Made by a program: the position numbers and the translations under genes | In this document: in pieces, positions 1 to 36,590 of the stretch | How positions within the stretch are numbered: the stretch's first letter is position 1 | Layout of the letters: each line of letters starts with the position of its first letter | The notes under the pieces: model-generated | Told to the model about the DNA's origin: nothing | The model's input: the letters and a program-made list of their open reading frames with translations, nothing else | Databases searched by the model: none | Assembly (NCBI RefSeq): GCF_013362045.1 | Contig: NZ_JABFWW010000299.1 | Coordinates: forward strand, 1-39,591 | Direction of reading: 5' to 3' | DNA length: 39,591 nt | From: Frateuria sp. | GTDB lineage: Bacteria; Pseudomonadota; Gammaproteobacteria; Xanthomonadales; Rhodanobacteraceae

Positions 1-1179
1 GGCCGCCGTCGCGGCGGCGGCGCGGTAGGCATCGCGGAACGGCACGCCGGCGGCGGCCTGCTCGATCGCCACGTCGGTGGCGTACATCGCCGGTTCGATT
101 GCCGCTCGCATGGCCGCCTCGTTCCAGCGCATGCGGGCGAGCAGGTCCGGCGCCAGTTCGAGCGCCGCGAGGCCGTGGGTCACGCCGTGGAAGAGCGAGC
201 CCTTGGAGAACTGCAGGTCGCGCTGGTAGCCCGAGGGCAGCGACAGCAACTGCTCGATCTCGCAGCGCGCCGCCGCCACGGTGGCATAGCTGGCGCGCAG
301 CAGCTCGACCACGTCCGGGTTGCGTTTGTTCGGCATGATGGAGCTGCCGGTGGTGTATTCGGGCGGCAGGCTGACGAAGCCGAACTCGGCGGTGGTGAAC
401 AGCGACAGGTCCCAGGCCAGCCGGCGCAGGTCCAGCAGCGCGCTGGCCAGCGACTCCAGCGCGGCCAGCTCGAACTTGCCGCGCGAGAGCTGCGCGTAGA
501 CCGGCGAGACCTGCATTCGCGCGAAGCCCAGCGCCCGCGTGGTGTGGTCGCGATCCAGCGGCAGGTTCACGCCGTAGCCGGCCGCGGTGCCCAGCGGGTT
601 GGCATCGATCCAGGCCAGCGTCTGGCGCGCACGCACGGCGCTGTCGATGAAGCCCTCGGCGAAACCCGCGAACCACATCGCCGTGGAGGACACCACCGCA
701 CGCTGCAGGTGCGTGTAGCCGGGCAACGGCAGCGCCGGCTGCGACGCGCGGTCCAGGCACACAGCGGCGATCGCCCGGCACTGCGCGCCGAGCGCGGCCA
801 GCTTTTCCTTCAGCCACAGCCGCGTGGCGACCAGGATCTGGTCGTTGCGGCTGCGCCCGGTGTGCACGCGCCGGCCGGCATCGCCGAGCCGCTCGGTGAG
901 CCGCGCCTCGATCGCCGAATGGCCGTCCTCGTAGCGCTCGTCGAGCACGAAGGCGCCGCCGCGGAAATCCGTCGCCAGCGCATCGAGCTCGTGCGCCAGC
1001 GCGGCGGCCTCCTCAGCGGATACCACGCCGATGCGGGCGAGGCCTTCCACGTGCGCCTTGCTGGCGGCGATGTCGTGCAGGAAGAACTCGCGGTCGAGCA
1101 GCACGTCGTTGCCGGCGAGGAAACGCATGATGCGCGCGTCCACCTGCACGTCGGCCTTCTGCCAGAGTAGGTCGGTCAT
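1..1179 (-). CDS. argH: Argininosuccinate lyase (C-terminus runs off the window edge)
   Basis: Reverse translation [32 protein letters not shown]... with HTGRSRNDQ and [12 protein letters not shown] signature; last gene of the arg cluster. Confidence 0.93.
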
Positions 1180-1205
1180 GGTCGTGTCCTTGGCGTTGGT
1201 GGCGA

Positions 1206-2156
1206 TCAGGCGAACGGGATGCTTTCGAGCTCGGGCCGGCCCAGCGCCAGGTTGATGTTCTGCATCGCCTGCGTGGCGGCGCCCTTGAGCAGGTTGTCGA
1301 GGGTGGCCACGATCACTACGCGCCGGCCGTCGGCGGCCAGGGCGAAGCCGCCGATTTCCGCGTGGTGCCTGCCGGCGATGCGGCTGACCCAGGGCGCCTC
1401 GTCGAGTACGCGCACCAGCGGCTCGGCCTCGTAGGCATGGCGGAAGCGCGCGGTCACGTCATCGCGCTTGAGTGCGCGCGCCAGATAAAGGTTGCAGGTG
1501 ACCGTAAGGCCGCGGAAATGCTGCGCCACGTGCGGCATGAACTCCACCGGCACGCCCAGGTGGGTGGAGGCCTCGCGCTCGTGCATGTGGCCGGTGAGCG
1601 CATACGGCATGAGGTTGTCGCGCAGCTTGTCCGGATCGTTCTTGTCCGAGGGCGTGGTGCCCGCGCCCGAGTAGCCGGACACGCCGAAGCACACCGGCGG
1701 CGCGGCCAGCAGGTCCTTCAGCGGCGCCACCGCAAGCTGCATCGCAGTGGCGTAGCAACCCGGGTTGCTGATCCGCCGCTGCCCGCGCCAGCGGCCGCGG
1801 GTCAGCTCCGGCAAGCCGTAATACCAGCGCTCGTCGAAGCGATAGTCGGCCGACAGGTCGACGATCAGCGGATCGCTGCCGCCCTGGTCGAAGGCCTCGA
1901 CGCAGGCGCCGGCCTTGCCATTGGGCAGCGCCAGGATCACTACATCGGCCCCGAGTCGAGGCAAGTCCTCGTGCGCGGGTGCTGTGTAGCGCAGCTCGCC
2001 GGCGTACTCGGGCACGTGCGCGTCCACGCGCTGGCCGTCCAGTTCGCGCGAGGAGACGTAGGCCAACTCGAGCGCGGGATGCCGCGCGATAAGGCGTATC
2101 AGCTCGGCGCCGGTGTGGCCGCGTGCCCCGACGATGCCTACGGTTTTCTTTTCCAT
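1206..2156 (-). CDS. argC: N-acetyl-gamma-glutamyl-phosphate reductase
   Basis: 316 aa; [37 protein letters not shown] active-site Cys motif. Confidence 0.95.
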
Positions 2157-2243
2157 CGATCACTCCGTTGCTTGGCTTCCCGCCGCGGGTGCAATGCGGG
2201 TACAGGGGAGGCCTTTTGCTCTGGCCCAGGGTGAAAAGCGTCC

Positions 2244-3602
2244 TTACCCGACCCTCTCCCCGGGCTGCGCCAGGGAAGAAGGCTCGCGGTCGAGAAGCGT
2301 GGGCACCCTCTGCGCACAGTGTTCCACGCAACGTTCGATCTTCCGGAAATCGTCGATGCCGTACCAGTACACCTTCCAGCGCGGCTGCTTCAGGCAGCCG
2401 TCGCATTCGGCGTCGTAGAACGGATTGACGTTGTTGCCGTGGCGCGAGCGCCAGAACAGCTGCGGGTTGCCTTCGCGCATCACCAGCCAGACCGCGCGCC
2501 CCAGGCCCTCGCCCTGCGCCTCGTCGAGCACGGCGAACTTGTCCAGGTAGGCCGTGCCTTCCGCGTGGGTGAGGATCATCGCCGCGCGGTAGTTCTCGCT
2601 GACGTAGACCCGGAACGGCTGCGTGCGCTCGAAATAGTCGGGCACCAGCGCGCGGCCGAAGCTCGACTCGATCAGCCCCCGCAGGCGCGCCTGGTCCACG
2701 CCGTCCCAGGAATCGAACGTCAGCACCTTCTCGCCCCGCCGCACCAGGGTGCCCGAGCCCTTGTGCGTGAACAGCTCCTTGGCCAGCTCCGCCGGCCGCG
2801 TGATCGACACCGACGAGGTGAGCGGCAGGTCGGCCAGCAGGTCGGCGATCTGCTCGATCTTCAGCCGCATGCCGCCGTCGATCCACGGTTGCGCCATCAG
2901 GTGCTCGTACTCGGTGGACAGGTTGATCGAGTCGATCACTTGCCCCTGCGCGTCGAGCAGGCCGCCGGTGCCGGTGAGGAACACGATCTTGTACGGCTGC
3001 AGCACGCGCACCAGCTCGTTGGCCGCCACGTCCGCGTTGATGTTGAGCAGCTGGCCTTCGGCCGTCTCGCCCAGGCTGGCGATCACCGGGATCGCATTGG
3101 CGCGCAGCGCCGCCTCGATCGGCGCCAGCTCGATGCCGGTGACCTTGCCGACCATGCCCAACGCCTCGCGGTCCAGGTAATCGGACGCAAAGACGCCTGC
3201 GGCGACCGACACGGCACGCGTATCCATCGCATGCAGCGCGTCCACCAGCCGCAGGTTCTGCTGCTGGAACACGCGGCGCACCACGCCCAGCGCCTGCGGC
3301 GTGGTCACGCGCAGGCCGCCCACCGTCTGCTTGACGATGCCGGCGGCGGCCAGCTCCTGGTCCAGCTGCGGACCGGCGCCGTGCAGCACGATCGGGGTCA
3401 GGCCCACCTGCTGCAGGAAGGTGAGCGAGGAGGCCAGCGCCGGCAGGTCGTCGCGCAGTACCGCGCCGCCGACCTTCACCACGGCGAAACGCTTGGCATC
3501 GATCTGCGAAAAGCGCTTGAGGTACTGCTGGATTTCCTTGGCGCTGCCCATGCTCTCGAGCAGCCGCACGATGGTCTTGCGCGTGTGCTTATGCGTTTCC
3601 AC
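2244..3602 (-). CDS. argB: Bifunctional N-acetylglutamate kinase/synthase (ArgB-ArgA type fusion)
   Basis: 452 aa; amino-acid kinase domain ([17 protein letters not shown]) followed by a GNAT-like NAGS domain ([42 protein letters not shown]). Confidence 0.9.
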
Positions 3603-4719
3603 GGCTCACGATCCGGTAGAGGTTGTCTGCGTATTGCTCGAGCTGGTCGAGCGCGATCCATTCGTCCGCGCTGTGCGCCTGGACGATGTCGCCCGGGCCA
3701 TAGACGAAGGCAGCGCAGCCGGCGGCGGAGAACAGCGCGGCCTCGGTCCAGAAATCCACGGCGTTGCCGACCGGGATCTCCAGTTCGTCGGCCAGGTCGC
3801 GCGCGGCAAGGCGGCGCGCCTCGGCGGTGGCCGTGTCGCCAGCCGGCAGCGAAGCGCCGCGGAAGGTTTCCTCGAAGTGCACCGGCGGCACGTCCCCCAG
3901 GCCGCGCAAGCGCGCGAGCAGATCGTCCGGGTGCATCGTCGGCAGCGGCCGGAAGCCAAAGCGCAGTTCCGCCGCCGGCGCGATCACGTTGGCCTTGATG
4001 CCGCCCTCGATCCGGCCGATGTTGAAACGCAGGCCGGTGAGCCCGCCGAAGCGCTCGTGCGACTGCGCGGCGACGAAGTCCAGCGCCGCCGCGCCCCAGC
4101 GCACCGCCTGGTGCAGCGCGCTATCGCCGGGCTTCTGCTCGCCCGAGGCATGGCCCGCCTGCCCGGCAAAACGCATCAGCACCGACTGGATGCCGCGATG
4201 CGCGAGCACCGCCTCGCCTCGTGTCGGCTCGGCCACGATGACGGCTTCGTAGGGAGTGGCGCTCCCCTCTCCGGATGGGAGAAGGGGAAAGGCCTTGAGG
4301 AAGCCCGCGATGCAGCGTGCGTCGTTGGCCTCCTCATCGGTGGAGAACAGCAAAGCCAGCGGGCCGTCGGTGGCGTTGGCCACGGCCAGCAGCGCGGCAG
4401 CGGCACCCTTGATGTCGCAGGCACCCAGGCCGATCGCGCGATCGCCCGCCACGCGCAGGACATGCGGGTCGGCGCTCCATGCCGGCGAGTCCGGCACGGT
4501 GTCCAGGTGCACGTTGAACAGCAGCCGCGGCTGGCCGCGCACGGCGTGCAGCGTCACTGCGCCGGCGCCGTAGTCGGTGACCGTCACCTCGAAGCCCGGC
4601 AGTTGCGCGCGCAGGTAATCGAAGAGGCCTCCCGTGCCGATGGCGCGCGGCGGATTGCGCGTGTCGAAGGCGACCAGCGCGCGCAGGTGCTCCAACGTGG
4701 CGTCCAGCAGCGCGCTCAT
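3589..4719 (-). CDS. argE: Acetylornithine/acetylcitrulline deacetylase (M20 family)
   Basis: 376 aa; [35 protein letters not shown]; overlaps argB start by 14 nt. Confidence 0.88.
4263..4288. repeat. REP-like palindrome inside argE'
   Basis: tcccctctccggatgggagaagggga; encodes LLPSGEGSA in frame. Confidence 0.5.
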
Positions 4720-4725
4720 CGCATG

Positions 4726-4826
4726 CTCCCGTCGGGAGAGAGGTTGAGCAGCGGGTTCGGCCAGAGCGCAGCGCCCAGGCCCGCCCGGCTGCTCACCCTC
4801 GGCCTCTCGCCCGCGGGGAGAGAGGA
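4726..4826. repeat. Structured intergenic element between argE' and argG with CTCTCC/GGAGAG palindromes
   Basis: ctcccgtcgggag...gagcagcggg...cccggctgctc...cctctcgcccgcggggagagagg. Confidence 0.5.
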
Positions 4827-4840
4827 GACAGGCGCGGCGT

Positions 4841-6046
4841 TCATGCCTTCGCGCCCCGGTTCACTTCCGCCCACAGCGTCGAGCTCATGCCGAACAGCTT
4901 GATGAAACCCTCGGCTTCTTCCACGCCCCAGTCGGCCGACTGCGCGTAGGTGGCGCCCTTGGCATTGAGGATGTGCGGCGAGGCGATGGCCACCGCGCTG
5001 ACCATGCCACCGCTGGTCTCCAGCGTCACCTCGCCGTTGACGGTGGACTGGCTGGACGCCAGGAAGGCTTCAAGGTCGGTCTTGATCGGGTCGTGGAAGA
5101 AGCCCTCGTACACCACCTCCACCCACTTGCGCGCCACCTCGGGCTTGAAGCGGTTCTGCTGCTTGGACAGCACGGCCTCTTCCAGCGCGCGGTGCGCGGC
5201 GAGCAGCGCGGTCAGGCCCGGCGCCTCGAACACGATGCGGCCTTTCAGGCCGATGGTGGTGTCGCCGGTGTACATGCCGCGGCCCACGCCGTAGGGCGCG
5301 AACAGCGCGTTGAGCCTGGCGAGGATCTCGTGGCCAGCCAGCTTCTGGCCATCCAGCGACACTGCTTCGCCGTTCTGGAAGCCGATCTTCACCCGCAGCG
5401 GTTCGGCGGGCCATTCGGCGCGCGGCTTGCACCAGCCGCGCGCGCCCTCGCCCGGCGCCTGCCACTTGTCGATCTCGCCGCCGGACATGGTCACGCCCAG
5501 CAGGTTCTCGTTGATGGTGTAGGCCTGCTGCTTGGCGCGCACGCCGAAGCCGCGCTCCTCCAGGTACTTCTGCTCGTAGGCGCGGGTCTGCGTGTGCTGT
5601 TTCTGGATCTCGCGGATCGGAGCAACGATCCGGTAGTCGCCCAGCGCCTTGACCGCCAGATCGAAGCGCACCTGGTCGTTGCCCATGCCGGTGCAGCCGT
5701 GCGCGATGGCGTGGGTGCCCAGCTCCGCGCAGCGCGCGAGCGCCGTCTCGACGATAAGGTAGCGGTCGGACACCAGCAGCGGGTACTGGCCCTGGTAGCC
5801 CTCGCCCGCCCACACGAACGGCTTGACGAAACCGTTCCAGATCGCCGGGCCGCCGTCGACGGTGCGGTGGCTGGCGACGCCCAGTTCCTGCGCGCGGTGC
5901 TCGATGAAGGCGCGCTCCTCGTCGTCCACGCCGCCGGTGTCGGCGAACACGGTGTGCACGTTCCAGCCCTGCTCCTTGAGGTAGGGCACGCAGAAGCTGG
6001 TGTCGAGGCCGCCGGAGAAGGCGAGGACGATGTCTTTCTGGCTCAT
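4841..6046 (-). CDS. argG: Argininosuccinate synthase
   Basis: 401 aa; [38 protein letters not shown]. Confidence 0.96.
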
Positions 6047-6067
6047 GGTGTTGTCTCGTTCGGGCAG

Positions 6068-7072
6068 TCAGGAGGCGAGCAGCGAGGCCATCACGGCCTT
6101 CTGCACGTGCAGGCGGTTTTCGGCTTCGTCGATGGCGATGCAATAGGGGGCGTCCATCACCGCGTCGGTGGCCTTGACGTTGCGGCGCAGCGGCAGGCAA
6201 TGGCTGAACAGGCCGTGGTCGGTGAGCGCCATCTTGGCCTCGTCCACGATGAAGTGCCGGTGTGCCTCGCGGATCGGCTTTTCCTGCTCCCAGCGACCGA
6301 AGTACGGCAGCGCGCCCCAGCTCTTGGCATAGACCACATGGGCGCCGCTGTAGGCCTCGGCGATGTCGTGGCTGACCTTGAGCGAGCCGCCGTTCTGCGC
6401 GGCGTTCTGGCGGCCGGCCTCCATGTAGCGCTCGTCGAGCACGTACTCGGGCGTGGGGCAAAGCAGGGTCACGTCCATGCCCAGCTTGGTGGCGATCAGC
6501 AGCGCGGAGTTGGCCACCGCCGTGTTGAGCGGCTTGGGATGGTAGGTCCAGGTCAGCACGTACTTCTTGTTCTTGAGGTCGCCCAGGTGCTCTTTCAGTG
6601 CCAGCGCGTGCGCCAGCTCCTGGCACGGGTGGGTGATCGTCTCCATGTTGATCACCGGCACCGTCGCGTAACGGGCGAAGGCCTTGATCACGCGGTCCTC
6701 GCGGTCCACCGCCCAGTCCTGGAACTTCGGGAAGGCGCGCACGGCGATCAGGTCGACGTAGCGGCTGAGCACGCGCGCCACCTCGGCGATGTGCTCTTCG
6801 GTATCGCCGTCCATCACCGTGCCGACATCGAACTCGATCGGCCATGCATCCTTGCCGGGCGCAAGCACGATGGCGTGGCCGCCCAGGTGGAACGCCCCCA
6901 GTTCGAAGCTGGTGCGCGTGCGCATCGAGGGATTGAAGAACAGGAGCGCGACGGACTTGCCGGCCAGCTGCTGGCCGCGCGGCGAGCGCTTGAACGCGGC
7001 CGCCTGTTCCAGCAGCGCATCGATCTCGGCGCGGCTGTAGTCCTGGGTGGTGAGGAAGTGTCGTGGGGCCAT
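6068..7072 (-). CDS. argF': N-acetylornithine carbamoyltransferase
   Basis: MAPRHFLTTQDYSRAEIDALL...FFNPSMRTRTSFE...HCLPLRRNVKATD; extension to 7126 in the ORF track uses a TTG inside the terminator tail and was trimmed. Confidence 0.9.
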   Translation of the reverse strand: MAPRHFLTTQDYSRAEIDALLEQAAAFKRSPRGQQLAGKSVALLFFNPSMRTRTSFELGAFHLGGHAIVLAPGKDAWPIEFDVGTVMDGDTEEHIAEVARVLSRYVDLIAVRAFPKFQDWAVDREDRVIKAFARYATVPVINMETITHPCQELAHALALKEHLGDLKNKKYVLTWTYHPKPLNTAVANSALLIATKLGMDVTLLCPTPEYVLDERYMEAGRQNAAQNGGSLKVSHDIAEAYSGAHVVYAKSWGALPYFGRWEQEKPIREAHRHFIVDEAKMALTDHGLFSHCLPLRRNVKATDAVMDAPYCIAIDEAENRLHVQKAVMASLLAS

Positions 7073-7124
7073 GATCGGGCTCGCGGTTCGTGGAAGCGGC
7101 TTCGGCGATCGCGGCGGGTTCTTC

Positions 7125-7155
7125 AAACAAAAAACCCGGCGCGAGGGCCGGGTTT
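7125..7155 (-). terminator. Intrinsic terminator or attenuator hairpin upstream of argF'
   Basis: Minus strand AAACCCGGC-CCTCGC-GCCGGGTTT followed by TTTGTTTG; 9-bp stem, about 50 nt upstream of the argF' ATG. Confidence 0.8.
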
Positions 7156-10146: not shown

Positions 10147-11325
10147 TCAGTCGCCCATCTGCTTCTGCAGGTGTTCGCGGCGTTCCTGCGCGTCGAGCGA
10201 CAACGTGGCGATCGGGCGCGCGTCCAGGCGCTCCAGGCCGATTTCCTCGTCGGTTTCCTCGCAATAACCGTAGCGGCCTTCTTCGATGCGGCGCAGCGCC
10301 TTGTCGATCTTGGAGATCAGCTTGCGGTAGCGGTCGCGCGTGCGCAGTTCCAGCGAATTCTCGGTTTCGCGGGTGGCGCGCTCGGCCTCGTCGCCGACGT
10401 CGCGTACCTCGTCGCGCAGGTTCTCCATCGTCTGGCGCGATTCCTCCACCAACTGGTCGCGCCAGTCGCGCAGCTTGTTGCGGAAGTAGGCCAGGTGCCT
10501 GGGGCTCATGTACTCCTCGTCGTTCGAGGGACGGTAACCCGGCGGCAGATCGATGTTGATCGTGGAGGGCAGCGCGTAACGACCGTCTTCGCGGGTCACG
10601 CCATTGTCTAGGCTTGTAGCATTGTTCATTGAGGACTGCGGGGTCTTCTGTTTCTTGAGTGGGGTATGGCGGGCGGTGGCGCTGGCCACGCGCGGGGTCA
10701 CCATGGCGACGGCACTCGCCACTTTGCCCTTCATGGGCGCAACGGCGGGTGATGGAGATGTTGGCCTGGCTGCAACCGATGTGGCCGGCTTGGCTGGAGC
10801 TGGCGTACCGGCGGGCTTGGCTGCGGCCTTCGCAGGCTGCGCGGCGGCGGGCTTGGCGACGATCTTGTGCGGGGCTTTCGGTGCCACTTTCGGTGCCGCT
10901 TTCGGTGCCGCCTTGGCGACCGGCCTGGTCGCCGCCTTCTTGGCGGGGGCCGCCTGCCGCGGCTGCGGCCGTGCCGGCTTCTTCGCCGGAACCGGCTTGT
11001 TGGGGGCGGCTTTCTTCGCGACGACCTTCTTGGCGGGAGCCTTCTTGGCCACGGGCTTGGCCGCCGGCTTCACCGCCTTCTTCGGCGCGGCCTTCTTCGC
11101 CACCGGCTTCTTGGCGACGGCCTTCTTCGCTGCAGGCTTTGACGCGACCGGCTTCTTTGCCGCAACCTTTTTCGCGGGCGCAGCCTTTTTGACGGCGGTG
11201 CTCCTGCCGGCCCGCAGGCTGGCAGCGGCTACACCGGACTTGCCGGACCTGGCCGGCTTCGCCTTGGCCGCAGTCTTTCCCTTCTGCGCCTTGGCGGCGG
11301 TCGAACTACGCGTCGTTTTCGCCAT
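10147..11325 (-). CDS. dksA: DksA/TraR-family RNA polymerase-binding protein with long Lys/Ala/Pro-rich N-terminal extension
   Basis: About 200 aa of PAKKA/KPVAKK repeats, then EEYMSPRHLAYFRNKLRDWRDQLVEESRQTMENL...YGYCEETDEEIGLERLDARPIATLSLDAQERREH. Confidence 0.88.
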   Translation of the reverse strand: MAKTTRSSTAAKAQKGKTAAKAKPARSGKSGVAAASLRAGRSTAVKKAAPAKKVAAKKPVASKPAAKKAVAKKPVAKKAAPKKAVKPAAKPVAKKAPAKKVVAKKAAPNKPVPAKKPARPQPRQAAPAKKAATRPVAKAAPKAAPKVAPKAPHKIVAKPAAAQPAKAAAKPAGTPAPAKPATSVAARPTSPSPAVAPMKGKVASAVAMVTPRVASATARHTPLKKQKTPQSSMNNATSLDNGVTREDGRYALPSTINIDLPPGYRPSNDEEYMSPRHLAYFRNKLRDWRDQLVEESRQTMENLRDEVRDVGDEAERATRETENSLELRTRDRYRKLISKIDKALRRIEEGRYGYCEETDEEIGLERLDARPIATLSLDAQERREHLQKQMGD

Positions 11326-11439
11326 TTCCTTCACCGTTTTGGCCGTGGCGGCCGGGTGTTATAGCCCATGCGCCTTACACCGGCAACAGGCATCTGGAAT
11401 ACTGTCCGACCACTACATGCCGCGTTCCGTTGGGACTGC

Positions 11440-31632: not shown

Positions 31633-33420
31633 TCAGGCGACCACCATGCCCTCGCCCGCCTTTCCAGCCACCACGCAGTTGCGCCCGGCGCGCTTGGCGC
31701 GGTAAAGCGCGTGGTCGGCATCCATCAGGAGCTGGCGCAACTCGTAGCCGGACTCGCCGGTGAAGGCCACGCCGAAGCTGGCCGATATCGCGACGTCCGG
31801 CTCCTCCTGGCCTCTGAGCGCGGCGATGGCGCGGCGGATCGCCTCGGCGCGCTCGATGCCGGCATCCAGCGCGCATTCGGGCAGCAGCACGCCGAACTCC
31901 TCGCCGCCCAGGCGGCCGAACACGTCGGTGGAGCGCATGTATTCCTGGCAGGCCTGCACTGCGCGACGCAATACCTGGTCGCCTGTCGCATGCCCGTAGG
32001 TGTCGTTGATCAGCTTGAAATGGTCCAGGTCGATCAGCACCAGCGACGCACGCCGTCCGGACCGCTCCGCGTAGAGCAAGGCATGCTCCGCCTCGGACAT
32101 GAAATGCTTGCGGTTGTAGATGCCGGTCAGGCTGTCGCACTGGGCCATGCGCATGAACTGAAGCTGCGAACGCTTGAGCCGCAGGAGCCACAGGCCGATC
32201 GCCAGCAACCCGAGTGCGAGCACCACTATGTACAGCCGGCTGGCTTCCATCGCCTTGCGGTCGAGCGCCCGCTGCAGTTGGAGGATCCTGTTCCGTTTGG
32301 CCAGCGCGTCGACTTCGGCCTTCCTGGCCTGCACCTGCTGCTTGACCACCTGATAGGCCATCGCCTTGGCGCTTACATCGTCCAGATAGGCCTTGTCGGC
32401 CTCCATGTAGCGTGCGTGCCAGCTCAGCGCCGACTTGAAGTCGCCGCGTTGCTGGTCGATCTGGTACAGGGTCTTGCAGGCCATACGCAGCGGATCAGTG
32501 AACTCTCCGGGCGTACTGGCCTGCCAGGCCGCCAGGGCATAGGTGCGCGCCTTGCTGGATTGCCCCATGGCGAGGTACGCCTGCGCGAGCAGTGCATCGA
32601 AACGCAGGGTGGTGATCTGGTATTGGTCATGGCGCACGCTCGAATAGTGCTTCTCGAGGAGGGCCGCCGCCTTGCCCGGATGCCCAGCCTGGATCTGCAT
32701 ACTGGCCAGGTCGGCACGCAGCGCGTTGGCGAACACAGACTCTCCAGCGCTGGCGCAATTGTCGATGGCCTGTTGTGCCTCCTGGTCGTCCTTGTCCAAC
32801 TGGCCGCTGCTGTAGCGCGCGTGCTCGATGAAGTACGAGGCCTTGCACGCGGTTTCCCCTGACGGGATGACATCCATCATCTGTCTGGCATAGCTCGTGG
32901 CGAGGTCGTATTGGCCCGCCGCAGTCAGCAACTGGGCGATCTCGCCGAGCCCCTGCCACCGCGGTTCACGATCGGTGATCCGGGGCAGTTGTTCGATCAA
33001 CTGATTCAGCTGGGCGAACGCATCCTCGTAGCGGTGCACGGCACCGAGAACGTTGATCAGCGTTGCCGTTGCACGGAATCGCAGCGTAGGGTCCGGCGCG
33101 TCACGAATGATGGCTGTCAGCGACGCTCGCGCCGCACGGTAGTCGCCCAAGTAGTCGAGCTGCCAGGCGTCCAGGTACTTCAGGAGGAGGTGCTGCTCGT
33201 CGCTGAGCCTGACCTCGCGATGGTGCAACTGGTCCAGCAGAGCAACGAACGCCGGGTTGTCCGACGTCTTCAGGTGGTCGGCCCGTACCAGCATCCGAGT
33301 GGTTTCCTCGGATTCGGGCACGGTCGATCCGATCACCGGCCCCAGGAAAAGAGTCAGGCAACACACGCCCCCCGCCCACCAGAACCGGTTCCGGCAAGAC
33401 CCAGGCATGATGCGAGCCAC
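31633..33420 (-). CDS. Signal-peptide/TPR/TM diguanylate cyclase (GGDEF)
   Basis: [20 protein letters not shown] with intact I-site RxxD; TPR-like N-terminal half; [19 protein letters not shown]. Confidence 0.87.
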
Positions 33421-33444: not shown

Positions 33445-33714
33445 TCAGGCGACGCCATCCTCGTCATGCGGCGGTTCCTCGCCTTCGTCCCCATCGAGCG
33501 GCGCCTCTTCTTCCTCTTCGCCCGGCATGATCACGCTGAACTGCGCCCCCGCCCCCATCAATGACTGGAGTTGCACGCGATCGCCCGACAACATCGCCGC
33601 ACGGACGCTCACATCAATCTGTTCCGCCGCCAGAGCCCGCTCCAGTTCCTGCAGGGGCGCATCGCGCAACCCGGCGTCGCTGCCCAACTTCTCGAGAATA
33701 TCGATCACGTCCAT
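33445..33714 (-). CDS. Split-borosin precursor peptide candidate (SonA-like), 89 aa
   Basis: MDVIDILEKLGSDAGLRDAPLQELERALAAEQIDVSVRAAMLSGDRVQLQSLMGAGAQFSVIMPGEEEEEAPLDGDEGEEPPHDEDGVA; downstream of the borosin-type methyltransferase; SD AAGGGGGG. Confidence 0.8.
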   Translation of the reverse strand: MDVIDILEKLGSDAGLRDAPLQELERALAAEQIDVSVRAAMLSGDRVQLQSLMGAGAQFSVIMPGEEEEEAPLDGDEGEEPPHDEDGVA

Positions 33715-33835
33715 AAGGCCCCCCTTCTGTGATGTCTGGTATCCGAGACGACCGCTCCCCGCGGCAACCGCACACCCTTCTTGATCATAGCCTGCTTCGC
33801 CGCCATTGAGCGCCGCCGGAAAAAATCCGGCTGGG

Positions 33836-34648
33836 CTACGCCGTGACCTGCTCCGAAATGGCATCCAGCACGGCCAATCGCGCCCGAATCTCCTCGTCGG
33901 GCTCCATGGCCCGCGCTGGTGGAATGGCCAGGGTGTCGGTCATGCCAAGCTGTGCCCCGGGGAGCGCTTGCAGCGTCGTGCGCTCGATCCGGGGTTGCCC
34001 GATCGGCAAAGTCGCGGCCTGGTAAATGATCACCTCGTGCTCCATCGGGTAGTCGCGCGCCAGCACGTCGACCAGCACCTGGCGGTACGCGGCGCCGGTG
34101 GAAAAGCGTTTCAGCGAACGGTCGCCCGCCAGGCCGGCCTGCCACAGGATCAGCCACGCGCTCGGATCGATGCGGCGCCGGTAGACAAGCAACTGGCTCG
34201 CCTCGAAGTGCTGACAGCCGCAGGTGCCCGGATCGATGCCCAGGTCGGCGTACAGGCAGTCCTCGGCCGAGATGCCCGGCTCCATGCGCGCGTTGTAACC
34301 CTCGCTGCGCGCCGTCTCGATGGCCTTGTGCGGCACCCAGGCGAACACCCCGGGATGGCCGTAGAACACGCCACATACGCGCCTGCCCGCACGCACCTCG
34401 ACGAGCATCGCCTCCACCATCTGCCGATACGTGCGCATGCGCGACTTGCCGTGCGCGTAGTATGGCTGCAGGCTGCGCACGTCCGCATGCATGCGCTGCA
34501 ACCAGCGCTCGACCAGGCCGTCCGATACGCCGGCGAACACCAGGTCGGCCTGCTCGATGTAGCTGCGCGCCAGCGGGCTGATGTGCGAGCCGAGAGTCAT
34601 GCCGATGCCGACGCAGACCAGGCGGCCGGCGGTTGGGTGCGTACTCAT
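33836..34648 (-). CDS. Borosin-type peptide alpha-N-methyltransferase (TP-methylase fold, SonM-like)
   Basis: RLVCVGIGMTLGSHISPLARSYIEQADLVFAGVSDGLVERWL, RTYRQMVEAML, YGHPGVFAWVPHKAIETARSEGYNARMEPGISAEDCLYADLGIDPGTCGCQHFEASQLL, EHEVIIYQAATLPIGQPRIERTTL. Confidence 0.88.
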   Translation of the reverse strand: MSTHPTAGRLVCVGIGMTLGSHISPLARSYIEQADLVFAGVSDGLVERWLQRMHADVRSLQPYYAHGKSRMRTYRQMVEAMLVEVRAGRRVCGVFYGHPGVFAWVPHKAIETARSEGYNARMEPGISAEDCLYADLGIDPGTCGCQHFEASQLLVYRRRIDPSAWLILWQAGLAGDRSLKRFSTGAAYRQVLVDVLARDYPMEHEVIIYQAATLPIGQPRIERTTLQALPGAQLGMTDTLAIPPARAMEPDEEIRARLAVLDAISEQVTA

Positions 34649-36082: not shown

Positions 36083-36410
36083 GCGTGAATCCTGAAGGTG
36101 CTCGCTTGATTTTGCCACCTCCGGCTGCGTTTTCTCCTCCAAACCGGAGCCGCCGCCCGGGGGCAAGCTCTTGTTTATCGCACCGCCGATCGGTACCAGG
36201 ATGCACGCGTCGGCGCCCTGCCAGCCGGTCATGTTCTTGATATGCAGGGAGACATCGTCCGCCTTGAGGAAATTCACCGTCTCGGCCCGGGCAACCGCAG
36301 CGCGAACTCCAGCCGGTAGTCGTGCTCTCGCGGCTGTCACTGCCGCTGAACGCGAAGGCGCCTACAACCGGATGGCCTGCAAGCGGCAGGCGCCGAGGAC
36401 ACGCACAGCC

Positions 36411-36590
36411 ATGAACGACGACCGCATCGAAGGCACCAAGCACCAGGTCAAGGGCGCGATCAAGGAAGGGGTCGGCAAGCTCACCAGCGACACACCCAAG
36501 CGGGTGGCCGGCAACCTGGAGAAGAACGCCGGCAAGGTGCAGAAGGAGATCGGCAAGACGCAGGAGGACATCCGCGACGAGAACGAGTGA
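36411..36590 (+). CDS. CsbD family stress protein
   Basis: MNDDRIEGTKHQVKGAIKEGVGKLTSDTPKRVAGNLEKNAGKVQKEIGKTQEDIRDENE. Confidence 0.88.
   Translation: MNDDRIEGTKHQVKGAIKEGVGKLTSDTPKRVAGNLEKNAGKVQKEIGKTQEDIRDENE

Follow-up and report, generated by a model that had tools for sequence, protein, structure and literature searches.

What a pair of genes for a borosin-type methyltransferase and a small partner protein is for, and which further genes share in that function, is the question raised by a locus of Frateuria sp. located on contig NZ_JABFWW010000299.1, of which positions 1 to 39,591 are referred to here as the window. The original prediction, made for the span 33445-34648, recognized the methyltransferase and the precursor, both of which lie within it, but this span ends short of a third gene of the operon (31633-33408), which was missed together with a second set of borosin genes in the same genome. 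The features of the first two genes are as follows:

33836..34648, minus strand: alpha-N-methyltransferase of the SonM type (270 aa; Pfam TP_methylase, PDB SonM 7ltc, active-site residues)
33445..33714, minus strand: candidate borosin precursor peptide of the SonA type (89 aa; homologs beside the methyltransferase, profile match to SonA, five-helix model)
33556..33714, minus strand: predicted borosin binding domain of the precursor, residues 1-53 (AlphaFold2 helices, Foldseek SonA matches)
33520..33546, minus strand: predicted core AQFSVIMPG, residues 57-65 (alignment with SonA)
33448..33519, minus strand: acidic C-terminal tail, residues 66-89 (sequence; acidic tails recur in Xanthomonadales precursors)

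The methyltransferase and its candidate precursor

The predicted 270-aa borosin methyltransferase ORF was found on the minus strand, with all of the motifs quoted for it. Database searches, proposed as a check on the enzyme, placed it in the SonM/OphMA family: it is matched end to end by SonM (PDB 7ltc, 263 aa; E 1.2e-78, 267 bits) and, with E-values of about 1e-50, by the structures of the fungal enzymes OphMA/dbOphM (about 175 bits for OphMA). This match to the solved SonM means that the locus is not a product of chance. Equivalents of SonM residues Y58, R67, Y71 and Y93, mutants of which have been studied (PMC8429565), are all present in the window enzyme and in every aligned homolog. The enzyme is encoded without a fused clasp or core, and its side-clamp loop is 3 residues shorter than that of SonM, as in nearly all of the Xanthomonadales enzymes.

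An ordinary tetrapyrrole methylase beside an unrelated small gene would agree with the Pfam TP_methylase match (2.5e-19), and porphyrin/cobalamin methylases as the closest homologs had been named in the original prediction as an outcome fatal to it. This alternative can be practically dismissed, given that NCBIfam cobalamin models score only 12-20 bits (cut-offs 93-391), SonM is matched so strongly, the core-binding Tyr/Arg residues are kept in all homologs, and the precursor is paired with the methyltransferase everywhere. As judged from these comparisons, the locus almost certainly encodes a split borosin, i.e. an enzyme together with a small peptide whose backbone it methylates. Split (type IV) borosins are an already known kind of system, to which the window locus adds one more.

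The small downstream gene was located where it had been predicted, on the same strand and separated from the methyltransferase gene by 121 nt, with the purine-rich stretch AAGGGGGG preceding its ATG codon; a plausible ribosome-binding site is present in front of each of the two ORFs. Comparison with the nearest relative (genome G001, locus L065; approx. 72% identity) yielded dN 0.15 and dS 0.52, with no differences between the two precursors in the stretch SLMGAGAQFSVIMP; this indicates that the gene is real. In nearly all of the loci compared, the methyltransferase gene is followed by a precursor homolog.

The claimed resemblance to SonA proved to be real, but is insignificant when single sequences are matched (E 0.8). 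A profile built from Xanthomonadales precursors with Shewanella excluded reached SonA among the PDB sequences with E 7.5e-5 (residues 1-64); this is the valid test, since the profile including Shewanella, which finds SonA at 7e-22, is circular. In the AlphaFold2 model (mean pLDDT 74) five helices (residues 3-12, 14-17, 21-30, 35-43 and 46-52) precede a core and tail modelled as disordered, the same anatomy as that of the SonA borosin binding domain. A Foldseek search with this model ranked SonA chains first, and these made up 18 of 20 among the matches listed (target TM about 0.75); the E-values are poor (best 1.7) because the domain is small. These sequence and model comparisons support the assignment of the small protein as a precursor of the SonA type, its borosin binding domain being made up of five helices.

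No signal peptide was found in the precursor sequence. The core is hydrophobic (FSVIM-P), and its P64, being a proline, cannot be N-methylated. In the alignment I62 corresponds to L63 of SonA, which is the first N-methylated residue of that protein (PMC8429565). In Rhodanobacter precursors at four loci (L037, L038, L039 and L047) the core is followed by proline-rich stretches (PPGPPGPGPSPMQPAVPPPPPEE), which replace the acidic run.

The third gene and its conservation

The third gene begins 24-36 nt downstream of the precursor, depending on whether an alternative GTG start at 33420 is used, and encodes a protein with the following features:

31633..33408, minus strand: TPR-TM-GGDEF membrane diguanylate cyclase, the proposed cognate receptor (591 aa; Pfam GGDEF, locus conservation)
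32284..33315, minus strand: TPR superhelix predicted to be periplasmic, residues 32-375, containing the invariant Cys188 and Cys218 (AlphaFold2, alignment, topology)
32176..32232, minus strand: sensor transmembrane helix, residues 393-411 (hydropathy 2.31; a transmembrane helix here in 39/39 sensors)
31678..32145, minus strand: GGDEF domain with an intact GGEEF motif and RxxD inhibitory site (Pfam, motifs, Foldseek)

An N-terminal hydrophobic segment is followed by the TPR domain, the transmembrane helix and a GGDEF domain (Pfam, 2.1e-45) carrying RSTD at position 492 and GGEEF at 501. The AlphaFold2 model (mean pLDDT 89) consists of a TPR superhelix spanning residues 32-321, a long signalling helix running through the membrane, and a cyclase, for which Foldseek retrieved the WspR, DgcB and PleD cyclases. 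No solved chain gave a sequence match to the TPR part below E 0.1. This part is predicted to be located outside the inner membrane, in the periplasm, and the invariance of Cys188 and Cys218 across 39 diverse sensors fits a periplasmic disulfide.

We compared 51 loci, chosen by homology of the methyltransferase, from Dyella, Rhodanobacter, Lysobacter, Pseudoxanthomonas, Shewanella and further relatives, a few of them from the same genome. Clustering of the neighbouring genes revealed the sensor in 49 of them, and every other family, precursors aside, in at most 8; the sensor is thus the only neighbour conserved across families. No tailoring, protease or transport/export gene was conserved in the 51 loci. 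The DUF418 gene upstream of the window locus recurs in the nearest relative alone, and a scan for promoters and terminators gave nothing above chance.

Elsewhere in the window, inspection by eye picked out an arginine cluster at 1-7126 (minus strand; argH, argC, a kinase-acetyltransferase fusion, an argE-like gene, argG and a transcarbamylase), apparently of the Xanthomonad type. A 395-aa protein encoded at 10147-11334 (minus strand) combines a long N-terminus rich in Lys, Ala and Pro, reminiscent of histone H1, with an apparent DksA-type C-terminal domain, and the C-terminal 59 residues of an ORF at 36171-36590 (plus strand) resemble a CsbD-type stress protein.

Among 100 related genomes, in which the TPR domain was searched for without the GGDEF domain, the methyltransferase was present in 57 and the TPR domain in 58. 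Both occurred in 56 genomes and neither in 41, the discordant cases being one with the enzyme only and two with the sensor only (Fisher p 2e-24 over the 100 genomes, shared ancestry not being corrected for). Only 4 of 369 genomes of the class gave a match below 1e-15 over the whole length of the ectodomain, and all 4 contain the methyltransferase.

In the case of Shewanella, a SonM homolog is present in 52 of 60 genomes, and 20/20 loci share the same order of methyltransferase, SonA-type precursor (detected in 18) and TPR-GGDEF gene. These include locus L131, whose methyltransferase is 99% identical to SonM, so the published SonM/SonA model pathway very probably contains this gene as well. Neither the sensor nor a recognisable precursor accompanied the methyltransferases of lower identity (33-42%; L153-L157) elsewhere in the class. 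The link with the sensor is therefore not general to all borosins, and our claim is limited to SonM-type loci.

Precursor-sensor pairs and exchange of the output domain

The precursor lies directly upstream of the sensor in 83 of the 97 sensor copies, mostly within 70 nt, and in 16 of these 83 pairs there is no methyltransferase just upstream. For at least 12 precursor-sensor pairs (L088-L098, L100), and in addition for L106, no methyltransferase is found within the fetched stretch. The precursor and the sensor of the pairs distant from a methyltransferase both resemble the class of the window locus, and the methyltransferase-linked sets recovered from several of the same genomes (e.g. G002, G003, G005 and G007) belong to the other class. 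Precursor and sensor have moreover been duplicated together in L035, L063 and L105. By comparative genomics the precursor and the TPR sensor are shown to be linked one-to-one, and several precursors presumably share a single methyltransferase that acts in trans.

The genome that contains the window locus holds a second set of this kind:

G000:C47:3070-6168 (L064:2980-6168): second borosin set, with a methyltransferase 69% identical to that of the window, a precursor with the core LNQVPQVVQTPG, and its own TPR-GGDEF sensor

The two sets represent two classes which recur through the family. This genome is about 86% complete, and further borosin copies may exist.

In two other gammaproteobacterial lineages the same TPR ectodomain, again encoded beside borosin genes, is joined to a hybrid histidine kinase and not to GGDEF:

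L151:7477-10434, minus strand: TPR-hybrid histidine kinase (ectodomain match E 9e-46; two proteins searched)
L152:7883-11128, plus strand: TPR-hybrid histidine kinase (ectodomain match E 2e-23; two proteins searched)

At L152 the gene order is methyltransferase, precursor, TPR-kinase. Since the ectodomain is kept and the output swapped, it is the TPR domain, not the cyclase, that is conserved with the borosin genes. Judging from the domain architecture, a conserved TPR part with an exchangeable output would be expected of a receptor.

Possible function of the peptide and comparison with known systems

With moderate confidence, based on the comparisons described above, we propose that the three genes form a split-borosin operon whose methylated peptide is the ligand of the cognate TPR receptor and alters cyclic di-GMP synthesis. 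Because the enzyme belongs to the SonM/OphMA family and its partner is a SonA-type precursor, it is very probable that the methyltransferase binds the five-helix leader and adds methyl groups to the backbone nitrogen of I62, and perhaps to those of neighbouring residues in QFSVIM. The methylated core would then be released by a protease, reach the periplasm or the outside, perhaps by diffusion helped by N-methylation, and bind in the groove of the TPR superhelix of its cognate sensor. This binding would change the synthesis of cyclic di-GMP by the GGDEF cyclase, the borosin product thus acting as a peptide signal and the third gene encoding its receptor.

Several findings count against the receptor reading: the lack of a conserved protease or exporter in the loci, the 14/97 sensors for which no upstream precursor was detected, and the moderate partial correlation between precursor and sensor given the methyltransferase (0.41, without a significance test). 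In genome G384 no precursor was found alongside the other TPR copies (L185 and L187). A search for a pepsin-like protease gave no match in the window genome, but none in the controls either, and is therefore uninformative; the protease shewasin is said to act on a borosin precursor.

The main rival to the receptor reading, in our estimate a rather unlikely one, is that the peptide is a secreted metabolite (e.g. an antibiotic or a metal-binding compound) and that the cyclase controls its production or shares its regulon, and is not a sensor of the peptide. RiPPs are commonly secreted metabolites, and three closely spaced genes on one strand would fit simple co-regulation. However, this explanation leaves unaccounted for the precursor-sensor pairs located apart from a methyltransferase, the matching of precursor and sensor classes, and the swap of outputs behind a retained TPR ectodomain; nor are export genes conserved in the 51 loci.

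It is less probable still that the precursor remains unprocessed, and that the whole or methylated SonA-like protein is a regulatory partner of the sensor, a small adaptor whose conformation is switched by methylation. The core of SonA does change from a helix to an extended form upon methylation (PMC8429565), and both the one-to-one pairing and the lack of a conserved protease would suit such a role. The predicted periplasmic location of the TPR domain speaks against it, as the precursor has no signal peptide.

Extending the receptor reading beyond this locus, we suggest more tentatively that proteobacterial split borosins could constitute a form of peptide signalling, with an N-methylated RiPP as the ligand, cyclic di-GMP or a phosphorelay as the output, and a methyltransferase shared in trans. 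As stated in 2021, no split-borosin pathway had yet been tied to a final product (PMC8429565). The near-exclusive co-occurrence with one family of TPR sensor kinases and cyclases suggests for the split-borosin peptides a function that can be tested, and in a strain amenable to genetics. If the proposal is true, backbone N-methylation would be a modification for making bacterial signal peptides, and the TPR receptors would provide a first handle on the chemistry of mature borosin products.

The association of borosins with GGDEF proteins may be partly known already: the legend of Figure 1 of PMC11395268 mentions a GGDEF-containing domain among borosin types, and we claim no priority for the adjacency of the genes. 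A literature search, from which the main bioinformatic surveys of borosins were absent, found no paper that connects borosins to diguanylate cyclases or to cyclic di-GMP. The results of the present analysis are the co-occurrence, the precursor-sensor pairs separate from a methyltransferase, the exchange of outputs and the proposed receptor role.

The closest known system is SonM/SonA of Shewanella oneidensis MR-1 (PMC8429565), which is similar in its separate enzyme and five-helix precursor, in gene order and in residues Y58, R67, Y71 and Y93. It differs in that the window enzyme is about 50% identical to SonM, the core is SYLVIS in SonA and FSVIM-P in the window, the 24-residue acidic tail of the window precursor is absent from SonA, and the window genome holds two diverged sets. 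The fungal enzymes OphMA and dbOphM share a homologous methyltransferase fold and active site, but their precursor is fused to the enzyme, whereas at the window locus it is separate. The catalytic domain of the sensor, with its intact GGEEF and RxxD motifs, is like those of the WspR, DgcB and PleD-type cyclases, from which the protein is distinguished by a TPR ectodomain tied to a RiPP precursor. By analogy, the proposed sensing of a small peptide through a TPR superhelix recalls the RRNPP-type receptors of Gram-positive bacteria, which are cytoplasmic transcription factors or phosphatases and sense unmodified peptides.
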